This document shows positions 4,121 to 8,273 of a stretch of DNA of 23,245 bases, in pieces. Numbering within the stretch: position 1 is the first letter of the stretch; the number at the start of each line of letters is the position of its first letter. The translations under genes were made by a program, and so were the position numbers. The stretch comes from a virus, in the IMG/VR virus record IMGVR_UViG_3300030104_001052, positions 1 through 23,245 of that record; one strand, given 5' to 3'. The notes beneath the pieces are model-generated. The model was not told the origin of the DNA and made no database searches. It saw nothing but the letters and a program-made list of their open reading frames with translations.

Positions 4121-4398
4121 GATATTTTCTCCAATGGCGCACCCCATGAATCGTGCGGTTCAGCAGGGGCATCGTCGTTCACACAATGGTCTGCCCATAG
4201 TTGTAAAAAGTGATCGACATCTTTTCTAGTAATTTCGGTAAAAGGTTCGTAAACTCTATGAAAATCATAGATAACTTTACTTACCCACTCATGGGCATCC
4301 ATTACAGCTCTATCGCTTACATAACGACCCCATCTATCAGTCGCTAAACTTATGACATGCGGTAATGTTTGCTGTTTAATCTGTTTTAGAGTCAGCAT
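4117..4398 (-). CDS. Hypothetical protein, 93 aa
   Basis: A soluble, probably helical protein: MLTLKQIKQQTLPHVISLA, RYVSDRAVMDAHEWVSKVIY and VDHFLQLWADHCVNDDAP. Histidines and aspartates are frequent, but I see no metal-binding signature I can name. It overlaps the coiled-coil gene by 23 bp and the next gene by 4 bp. No family recognised. Confidence 0.66.
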   Translation of the reverse strand: MLTLKQIKQQTLPHVISLATDRWGRYVSDRAVMDAHEWVSKVIYDFHRVYEPFTEITRKDVDHFLQLWADHCVNDDAPAEPHDSWGAPLEKIS

Positions 4399-4576
4399 TT
4401 TGTACCTCCGCTCTTGGCATAAAACTAGATATAACTCCTAAGATTTTTCGGTCGCTCTCGAACATAGCTATCTTCTCTTCGAGGAGAGTAATCCTGTTAT
4501 GCATTGATCTAATAGATTCAAGATTATTTTGAATACTAGCCATCAGTGTTTTAATTATTTTTTCGTTATCTTCCAT
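4376..4576 (-). CDS. Coiled-coil protein, 66 aa, behind the long structured leader
   Basis: First protein gene after promoter 4881-4909 and the 298-nt leader. The ATG at 4576 has the usual AGAAAGGAG site. Residues 1-42 form a probable coiled coil (MEDNEKIIKTLMASIQNN, IRSMHNRITLLEEKIAMFES), and the end is polar. No enzymatic motif. Because the leader is so structured, this gene is the most likely to be controlled at translation, unless the RNA acts on its own. Confidence 0.65.
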   Translation of the reverse strand: MEDNEKIIKTLMASIQNNLESIRSMHNRITLLEEKIAMFESDRKILGVISSFMPRAEVQNADSKTD

Positions 4577-4874
4577 ATATTTCTCCTTTCTTAGTTTATG
4601 AAACTGAATTTGTAGTGTGTTGGAAAACGGTTTCTAGCACTTACTCCAACTCTCAACCTATGACCACGTTTAAGGGTTTTATGATAGGCTCGTTCAACAC
4701 TACAAAATAGGGTGGCATGGGCTCAGTATCCTGAGCACTAGCCACTTGGAAGTCTAGTAGTTTAAAGTCACTTCTCGGGATAACTTCCCAGCACCCGATG
4801 GCTGACTTTGGAACAGGAAAACTATAAAACCTGCTCCTAGTCTGCGGTAATATCTTACCGCATGTATTTAATAT
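4577..4874 (-). ncRNA. Candidate structured RNA / long 5' leader (unknown class)
   Basis: A 298-nt stretch between the predicted transcription start of promoter (d) and the coiled-coil gene, with higher GC than its surroundings. Read on the minus strand it offers: stem 1, TGCGGTAA/TTACCGCA, 8 bp with loop GATA (4843-4862); stem 2, GGAGCAGG/CCTGTTCC (4810-4837); stem 3, AAAGTCA/TGACTTT (4803-4809 with 4764-4770) enclosing TCGGG/CCCGA; stem 4, ACTAG+ACT/AGT+CTAGT (4737-4758); stem 5, GCTCAG/CTGAGC with loop GATA (4721-4736); and a three-way junction closed by TTTGTAGTG/CACTACAAA (4698-4706 with 4609-4617) holding AGCCTAT/ATAGGTT and GTTGGA/TCCAAC. There is no U-tract, so it is not a terminator. 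A 95-codon frame spans it but runs through the promoter and has no good start, so I prefer RNA. It could be a riboswitch-like leader or a free ncRNA. Confidence 0.6.
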
Positions 4875-4880
4875 AAGTAT

Positions 4881-4909
4881 ATTATATATAACAGCATAAC
4901 GATTATAAA
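4881..4909 (-). promoter_or_regulatory. Conserved phage promoter (d)
   Basis: Minus strand: TTGCTTTATA with -35 TTTATA (4904-4909), 17-bp spacer, -10 TATAAT (4881-4886). Predicted start near 4874. It drives the structured leader and the seven-gene unit down to 2806. Confidence 0.8.
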
Positions 4910-4923
4910 GCAACGTTATGATA

Positions 4924-5262
4924 CTAATGAATTTCACCATTTTGTGTACCTGTTATAACTAGAGGATTGGTATCTTTATTAAAATTAGGGTCATACCACT
5001 CTAAAGTCGGTATAACTACCCCATTTGTACCAAGTTTCCAGTCTTGTACATAATCTAAATATTTTTTCGATATATCACTCAATAAATCCTCAATGGGTCG
5101 AGTATCGTTCTTAAAAGTCTGTACAAACTTCTGTAAGTTAGGTTTTTTGCCTTGATCCACAGCTTCATCAATAAAAGTAAGCATTTCTATATCAACATCT
5201 GTAAGTGTATTAAAAAACTCTACCTTCTTATGCGTTTCCGCCATTAGTTCTTTAAGCGTCAT
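4924..5262 (-). CDS. Hypothetical protein, 112 aa
   Basis: Second gene of the unit from promoter 5735-5763; its ATG shares the last A of the upstream stop (TAATG). The first two thirds look helical (MTLKELMAETHKKVEFFNTL, IEDLLSDISKKYLDYVQDW); the end is loop-rich with WYDPNFNKDTNPLVITGTQNG. No domain recognised. Its stop lies 15 bp before the -35 of promoter (d). Confidence 0.68.
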   Translation of the reverse strand: MTLKELMAETHKKVEFFNTLTDVDIEMLTFIDEAVDQGKKPNLQKFVQTFKNDTRPIEDLLSDISKKYLDYVQDWKLGTNGVVIPTLEWYDPNFNKDTNPLVITGTQNGEIH

Positions 5263-5702: not shown

Positions 5703-5734
5703 AACATTTCTCCTTTCTAATAGTTATAAGTAAT

Positions 5735-5763
5735 AGTTTAAAGTGCATTTAAAGCAAAGTAAA
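5735..5763 (-). promoter_or_regulatory. Conserved phage promoter (e), inside a small ORF
   Basis: Minus strand: GTGCTTTACT with -35 TTTACT (5758-5763), 17-bp spacer, -10 TAAACT (5735-5740). It overlaps the 3' half of the candidate 25-aa membrane peptide. Confidence 0.72.
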
Positions 5764-5815
5764 GCACTAATAAGAACCAAGCAAATAGTAAAACATAAAC
5801 GTCATCTTTCTTCAT
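5738..5815 (-). CDS. Candidate 25-aa single-pass membrane peptide
   Basis: ATG at 5813-5815 overlaps the end of the upstream gene by 14 bp. The peptide has a short charged start (MKKDDV) and then an almost wholly hydrophobic stretch, YVLLFAWFLLVLYFALNAL, long enough for one membrane span. No clear Shine-Dalgarno is visible, so translation would rely on coupling. The coding frame also carries promoter (e), which could instead explain part of the composition. It might be a small phage membrane protein, but may be a chance frame. Confidence 0.4.
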   Translation of the reverse strand: MKKDDVYVLLFAWFLLVLYFALNAL

Positions 5816-6020: not shown

Positions 6021-6046
6021 AGTTTCTCCGTAAAAATTAATTAAAG

Positions 6047-6070
6047 TGAGTCTTTTTATAGTGAGACTCA
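6047..6070. repeat. Inverted repeat in the 6021-6179 spacer
   Basis: TGAGTCT (6047-6053) and AGACTCA (6064-6070) form a 7-bp inverted repeat with a 10-base loop, 27 bp upstream of the 72-aa gene start. It could be a transcript hairpin or a protein site. The rest of the spacer holds no convincing gene. Confidence 0.45.
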
Positions 6071-6179
6071 ACACCGATATGGGCAGTTGGATTAGCAAAG
6101 ATACCCCGAATTTAATCTAGGCTTTATACTTTGGATAGTTCATTAACTGCTAATTTCCCTATCAACCCTCGCATATCAA

Positions 6180-6554
6180 TTACAACTCTGCAAAGTAGCC
6201 TTCTTTAACAAGTCTTTTGCCATAGAACCTAAAGATTCTTAATGGGTCTTGACCTGTAGTCAGGTTGCCTTTCTTCACTGCTAATGCGACTAAATCTTGT
6301 GCAGTAAAACTAGTAGAGTCTATTTCACTCTTCTTAGCTTCACTAACAGTTAAGATTAATGCTCTCATCTGCGGTGTAAAGCCTTTAGCATCAGGCAAAG
6401 TTCCTATGAACTTGTAAAGCTTTCTAGCTGCACCTTTACCTGTTTTCATAGGTTTTGGTATAGCATTGACTTTAGCCTTGCTTAAAGGTTTTGCAACTTT
6501 AGTGGTTGCAATAGGTGCTCTCTTTTTAGAGGGCGTAGATGTTGCTGTTTGCAT
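6180..6554 (-). CDS. Basic protein with probable winged-helix C-terminus, 124 aa
   Basis: Residues 1-45 are rich in Lys, Ala, Thr and Pro (SKKRAPIATTKVAKPLSKAK) like a disordered nucleic-acid-binding tail. Residues about 46-124 look like a compact helical domain ending in a wing-like turn: LYKFIGTLPDAKGFTPQMRA, FTAQDLVALAVKKGNL, DPLRIFRFYGKRLVKEGYF. A DNA-binding role is inferred from charge and pattern only. The gene directly follows promoter 6610-6638 with its GNRA-loop leader. No named family. Confidence 0.68.
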   Translation of the reverse strand: MQTATSTPSKKRAPIATTKVAKPLSKAKVNAIPKPMKTGKGAARKLYKFIGTLPDAKGFTPQMRALILTVSEAKKSEIDSTSFTAQDLVALAVKKGNLTTGQDPLRIFRFYGKRLVKEGYFAEL

Positions 6555-6609
6555 ATCTTTCTCCTTTCTTTATGTTAATAAAATCTACCTTGCGGTAGAA
6601 CCAAATACA

Positions 6610-6638
6610 AGTATGCCTAACAGCCGTTCGAAAGTAAA
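6610..6638 (-). promoter_or_regulatory. Conserved phage promoter (f) with flanking inverted repeat
   Basis: Minus strand: CTGCTTTACT with -35 TTTACT (6633-6638), 17-bp spacer, -10 CATACT (6610-6615). The leader carries a TCTACC/GGTAGA stem closed by a GCAA tetraloop. An 8-bp inverted repeat brackets the -35. Confidence 0.77.
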
Positions 6639-6655
6639 GCAGTACCACGAACGGC
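6623..6655. repeat. 8-bp inverted repeat around the -35 of promoter (f)
   Basis: GCCGTTCG (6623-6630) and CGAACGGC (6648-6655) are exact reverse complements, 17 bp apart, and enclose the TGCTTTACT element. No other copy of the promoter has this. It could be an operator or the end hairpin of the preceding unit; no U-tract follows. Confidence 0.55.
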
Positions 6656-6669
6656 GGATAAGCAGATAC

Positions 6670-8194: not shown

Positions 8195-8212
8195 ATATTT
8201 CTCCTTTCTAAA

Positions 8213-8249
8213 ATAATGGTCGTAGCCTTATTACTACTAAGACCATTAT
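8213..8249 (-). repeat. 9-bp inverted repeat forming a hairpin at the mRNA 5' end
   Basis: ATAATGGTC (8213-8221) and GACCATTAT (8241-8249) are exact reverse complements. The distal arm overlaps the -10 of promoter (g), so the expected transcript begins inside the stem. It may protect the mRNA 5' end or act as an operator. Confidence 0.55.
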
Positions 8250-8273
8250 AGGTAGCAAAGTTACGAAAGTAAA
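8245..8273 (-). promoter_or_regulatory. Conserved phage promoter (g)
   Basis: Minus strand: CTGCTTTACT with -35 TTTACT (8268-8273), 17-bp spacer, -10 TATAAT (8245-8250). The -35 overlaps the last codons of the nuclease gene. It drives the DUF932 unit. Confidence 0.82.

Follow-up and report, generated by a model that had tools for sequence, protein, structure and literature searches.

Exchangeable structured RNA modules in phage leaders, with a putative trans-binding role

The leader at positions 4577-4874 (minus strand) of an uncultured marine phage, a 23,245-base IMG/VR virus record that as a whole constitutes the window analyzed here, encodes an RNA that we established to be structured, modular and mobile, with no tie to one kind of gene. 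It is laid out as a mosaic, H0-H1-B-N-C, and we have little doubt that these modules are real RNA units that can be exchanged. An initial annotation had described the region as one candidate new structured RNA. All of the stems it listed are borne out in the minus-strand sequence, on which every leader feature below lies: TGCGGTAA-GATA-TTACCGCA (8 base pairs, bp), GCTCAG-GATA-CTGAGC (6 bp), GGAGCAGG/CCTGTTCC (8 bp, one G-U), AAAGTCA/TGACTTT over TCGGG/CCCGA, and a three-way junction closed by TTTGTAGTG/CACTACAAA (9 bp) with the arms AGCCTAT/ATAGGTT (7 bp, with G-U) and GTTGGA/TCCAAC (6 bp). The singular does not hold, however, as there are four to five separate elements, several of which, B and C among them, are exchanged independently of one another.

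The comparison set consisted entirely of contigs of a viral collection; many loci (designated by L numbers) are overlapping or near-identical contigs, so that counts are not independent events, and copies found by pattern are necessarily alike within the pattern region. A search with the 66-codon gene downstream of the leader returned one close relative, L002, and a search with the 342-codon upstream gene returned 80 loci. At about 15 of these 80, a leader is found in the same place, with sequence that is common in parts and never as a whole.

That the leader is a real structured RNA is confirmed by sequence comparison, and the decisive proof is covariation, not energy, i.e., the covariation in the pseudoknot of module B together with the 27 distinct closing helices of module C. 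Module B (4748-4809; 12 distinct homologues in alignment A1) consists of stem P1 (AAAGTCA/TGACTTT), stem P2 (TCGGG/CCCGA) and a 3' pseudoknot strand. The strand GGAAGT of its apical loop (4783-4788) pairs with the 3' strand ACTTCC (4748-4753), a pairing that is absent from the stem list of the initial annotation. This pseudoknot is 100% paired in the 12 distinct copies, with three pairs changed on both sides and zero broken; 13 alignment cells are changed on both sides, none of 500 shuffles reached this number, and sliding the partner destroys the pairing. Nearly all variable columns of B are the three in the apical loop and the three in the 3' flank, which co-vary: GGAAGT is found with ACTTCC, and the loops AGAGAGT, GAAGGT and AGGGT likewise with matching partners. 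Beyond these six, variation is limited to two columns on the 5' side of the loop and a few more at the P1 base. Because P1 and P2 hardly vary, they are backed by pairing, not by covariation. Compensatory changes in homologues, which had been set as a test for the leader, are present at paired positions.

Module C (4609-4706) is a three-way junction with 33 variants that have in common the bulge (T)RTRAAA and a loop such as GTGCTAGAAACC, as in the window, or GAACTAAACC. MAFFT misaligned the closing stems of C, and RNAalifold derived no consensus pairs from that alignment; therefore, the search model R1 is sequence-only, and the helices were assessed by partner-swap controls instead. The 27 distinct closing helices surround a conserved core, and their mean score is 8.9 for native partners versus 4.5 for swapped partners, with 0.7% of swaps reaching the native median. 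Each arm has 17 distinct helices; for these short arms the swap control is weak, the native median being reached by 27% of swaps for arm 2a and by 56% for arm 3. An apical mini-hairpin, CCTAGATTRRATTCGGGG, is inserted in one arm of many C variants. The sole match of R1 in the window has E 1.8e-18, although the R1 alignment includes this copy. An initial regular expression for C hit coding sequence and was abandoned.

Three further modules complete the leader. H0 (4843-4862) is the hairpin TGCGGTAA-GATA-TTACCGCA, seen in the sequence and in the fold, and also in the close relative L002. H1 (4810-4837) is the first hairpin in nearly all arrays at this locus; its loop, TTTTATAGTTT, is retained within unrelated stems (CTGATAAAGG/CTTTATCAGG, CACTAAGCGA/TCGCTTAGTG, GGAGGCAAGG/CTTGTCTCC and others), and a flanking stem scoring at least 4.5 accompanies 39% of 49 loop matches versus 7% with swapped flanks. 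A short GFYS peptide can be read from the H1 loop in some phages; this candidate was rejected, as frames and starts are not kept. Module N (4712-4745), GTGGC-TAGTGCT-[CAG..CTG]-AGCCCAT-GCCAC, has homologues at L002, L013, L085 and L096, among which, by eye, the apical stem varies and the internal loop is retained. The leader as a whole is not a 95-codon gene, in line with the initial annotation, since the frame is not conserved: in a set of ten homologous leaders, the longest frames that start at most 80 nucleotides (nt) upstream of H1 are between 8 and 88 codons long and differ in their starts and ends.

The folding check that had been proposed for the leader was favorable in itself and unremarkable within the genome. 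The minimum free energy is -88.6 kcal/mol (z = -4.48), and 0 of 200 dinucleotide shuffles were as low; among 156 minus-strand tiles of 298 nt (30 shuffles each), the leader ranks 7th. It should be noted that several coding windows have z values of -4.2 to -4.6 in the same tiling and score equally low, so that folding energy is weak evidence here. No known class had been recognised in the leader, and a search of the window against Rfam 15 agrees, with no match at the gathering threshold; the region 4500-5000 gave no match at E up to 10, the sole match at 16 related loci was a tRNA in L188 that lies outside the modules, and ARAGORN found no tRNA or tmRNA in the window. These searches bear on the proposal that a polycistronic transcript is cut at some of the modules, which would be self-cleaving ribozymes or processing sites for nucleases. 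Small size, pseudoknots, invariant unpaired bases and an intergenic location would suit such a role; however, Rfam covers the described ribozyme classes and yielded no match, and the conserved parts differ from module to module, which makes the proposal improbable.

The mosaic character emerges when the leaders are compared, and the modules are shared among marine phages both related and unrelated, which acquire, lose and nest them as whole units. The L002 leader is 99% identical, yet it has about 105 extra bases (modules D and E) between H1 and B. At L013 the C part is present and B is absent; L008 has B plus a C-like unit of differing sequence; L007 and L033 have a further unit, G; and at L081 module F is nested within P. 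The combinations seen are F-B-C-G, B-C-G, B-C, C-I, C-B-K, F-K and J-G-I, and a pattern search of the viral contigs found modules also in phages with other neighboring genes. Modules F, K, J, G, I, E and P were identified by recurrence, F in 11 distinct sequence contexts. J, E, N and P were assessed by eye, a swap test on the flanks of J being uninformative; by this reading, E and J are candidate H-type pseudoknots. At L085, L096, L102 and L103, additional hairpin units come after the B-N arrays, and a promoter-like TTTACT..TATTAT then separates them from the next gene, so that these arrays do not count as simple leaders.

The initial annotation had put the other leaders of the window at about 35-60 nt, which overlooked a 154-nt intercistronic region (6026-6179, minus strand) with a second array. 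The stop codon of the upstream gene (6180-6554) lies a few bases ahead of module P (6077-6176, minus strand), which has the pseudoknot stems GATAG/CTATC and GCAGTT/AACTGC. By eye, it has relatives at L044, L081, L117, L124, L156 and L173, and its stems co-vary (GAAGG/CCTTC and GCTGTT/AACAGC at L081, ACAATT/AATTGT at L124). Nested in P is the mini-motif hairpin (TATAAAGCCTAGATTAAATTCGGGGTA; 6097-6132, minus strand), with an exact match at 6104-6121 where none is expected by chance. It has one copy in the window and 110 stretches in viral contigs, and its flanking stem scores 6.3 for native versus 3.5 for swapped flanks. A hairpin TGAGTCT..AGACTCA (6047-6070, minus strand) stands after P and before the next Shine-Dalgarno sequence. 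The second array has an energy z of -0.05 and was not flagged by energy folding, probably because it is pseudoknotted. At L125, L187 and L194, the mini-motif hairpin shortly precedes primase-helicase genes.

Copy number is low for the modules tested. F, K and B each occur in 6 of 30 viral records (13-84 kb), in single copy even at 3 mismatches, and C, by its sequence model, is single-copy in 16 of 17 positive records, with two tandem copies in the remaining one. The F core is identical at 31 of 31 bases across six records. Ten modules concatenated with N spacers gave nothing against GenBank phages and plasmids at E up to 1, and the mini-motif gave only a weak match among GenBank phages (Lactococcus phage KSY1, 57% coverage, E 0.9).

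Wherever the downstream gene can be called, it is on the strand of the module, with none opposite; 13 module copies fell within open frames according to a crude gene caller, but we regard these calls as spurious because the frames differ between homologues. The downstream proteins form 39 families by blastp clustering, so that regulation of one particular gene is unlikely; of the earlier reading, the structured RNA is supported. This diversity also bears on ligand-sensing riboswitches or protein-bound operators that would control downstream translation. Conserved internal loops in variable stems are aptamer-like, and the last module lies near the Shine-Dalgarno sequence; however, one module precedes unrelated genes, the 39 families have no single functional class, and it would be unusual for one gene to be preceded by a tandem of several different modules. 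We consider this explanation unlikely.

A close rival to the reading that we favor below is that the modules are cis-acting leader elements, compact pseudoknots that would shield early mRNA from ribonucleases or insulate the ribosome-binding site. The arrays lie between a promoter or upstream gene and a Shine-Dalgarno sequence, the next gene is on the same strand in all callable cases, modules are swapped freely at one site ahead of the 39 families, and module B has the topology of xrRNA_D, a dianthovirus-type exoribonuclease-resistant RNA for which P1, P2 and a pseudoknot are described (PMC6299227). Conversely, single copies with an invariant core would not be required of a generic roadblock, and the xrRNAs of dianthovirus type have little sequence conservation outside two loops (PMC6299227); the region lacks an Rfam match at E up to 10, and promoter-like sequence separates the array from the next gene at L085, L096, L102 and L103. 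We consider cis action a realistic possibility, somewhat less probable than the reading below.

Our preference, held tentatively and at somewhat less than even odds, is that the modules are single-copy binding or decoy RNAs that act in trans. An early phage promoter would transcribe an array of autonomous, exchangeable RNA cassettes, each acting by specific recognition, with invariant loops that bind one particular partner. The partner would most likely be a host RNA-binding factor of metabolism or defense, the module would serve as a decoy or inhibitor RNA inside the infected cell, and arrays would be reshuffled when hosts change. Specific recognition is suggested by the invariant cores and single copies, because an element with a generic mRNA-protecting function would be free to drift and to be repeated. 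The ToxIN system provides a precedent for a phage RNA decoy (PMC3475682), and the idea of a processed phage noncoding RNA in the initial annotation may be close to this trans-binding role. Several points weigh against it. The binding partner is hypothetical. Of the modules, only the F core and the mini-motif were scanned against 257 Gb of genomes of bacteria and archaea, and neither was matched exactly; for these two, there is thus no sign that they mimic a known host RNA. The arrays stand directly before Shine-Dalgarno sites, which would equally fit an effect on the carrier mRNA. Finally, the invariance of the F and B cores is partly set by the search patterns, although searches of whole records at 3 mismatches found no looser copies of either.

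The leader is flanked by a 112-codon gene and the 66-codon gene (4376-4576, minus strand), the latter with no assigned function and with the Shine-Dalgarno sequence AAGGAG at 4583-4588. At its start is a sigma-70-like promoter, TTTATA ... TATAAT (4877-4914), identified by eye and unscored, and an equivalent arrangement is seen by eye upstream of the arrays of relatives. At L114 (5287-5700) and at L115 upstream of F, arrays start shortly after near-consensus TTGACA..TATAAT-like promoters, which suggests strong expression. Upstream of several genes of the window (e.g., 1085-1179, 1833-1949, 5703-5801 and 6555-6669), a GCTTTAYTWTCG-like stretch recurs, with a TATAAT-like box and a TAGAAAGGAGAA-like ribosome site downstream of it; the stretch and box are probably a common early promoter type of this phage. 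Between genes at 8195-8260, there is a hairpin, TAATGGTC..GACCATTA, with a 19-nt loop, possibly another small module. Megablast with the whole window found no close relative among named phages, and blastn with the leader gave only short chance matches to them. The DNA polymerase of the window is nearest to that of phage 023Pt_psg01 (52.5%) and of Pelagibacter phage HTVC023P (48.9%). The nearest polymerase and primase relatives are from Pelagibacter and Roseobacter phages and one gammaproteobacterial phage, and at about 45-53% identity they are too distant for a host to be named.

More broadly, it is conceivable, if rather doubtful, that uncultured marine phages have a common recombining library of about ten RNA modules (its named members being H1, B, N, C, E, F, G, J, K, P and the mini-motif) from which phage-specific arrays in early leaders are assembled, each module being single-copy and directed against one host factor. 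If true, the library would be the RNA counterpart of an anti-defense gene island. Accessory regions of phages are usually taken to be protein genes, whereas RNA is what varies here, in the form of several unrelated folds (some with pseudoknots) that pass from phage to phage and are inserted in one another as domains. Acting in trans, they would form a new reservoir of phage RNA effectors; acting in cis, they would be a modular set of tools that protect mRNA. Energy scans overlook part of the array RNA that comparison of viral contigs detects, so that arrays of this type may be widespread yet unnoticed. It is the array organization that underlies the claim of a new kind; the function is putative.

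Among known systems, phage tRNA clusters are similar in that single-copy RNA genes form variable clusters; the folds are unrelated, and the window has no tRNA by ARAGORN. The manA, wcaG and PhotoRC-II motifs (Rfam; PMC2864571) are likewise structured RNAs of marine phages or cyanophages upstream of genes, but they are single motifs tied to particular gene classes, do not form arrays and were unmatched here. Pseudo-ToxI of phage PhiTE (PMC3475682) is a phage-encoded structured RNA with a pseudoknot and recombination-driven evolution. However, it consists of repeats of one 36-nt unit that resembles a host antitoxin (PMC3475682), whereas our modules differ from each other, are mostly single-copy and have no known host counterpart. 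Type III RNA antitoxins are tandem repeats of one pseudoknot; modules within an array differ here, and one array has two copies of C.

In xrRNA_D, the apical loop pairs with downstream sequence. P1, P2 and the pseudoknot have been described for this dianthovirus-type element (PMC6299227). Module B has the layout and its pseudoknot co-varies, but its P1 and P2 hardly vary. B differs in that it gives no match to an Rfam covariance model (E up to 10), lies in the 5' leader of a DNA phage and not in a plant RNA virus, and is strongly conserved in primary sequence. Nevertheless, with two stacked stems, a conserved internal loop and an apical loop pseudoknotted with sequence 3' of the stem, module B resembles the exonuclease-blocking RNAs, a likeness of layout only.
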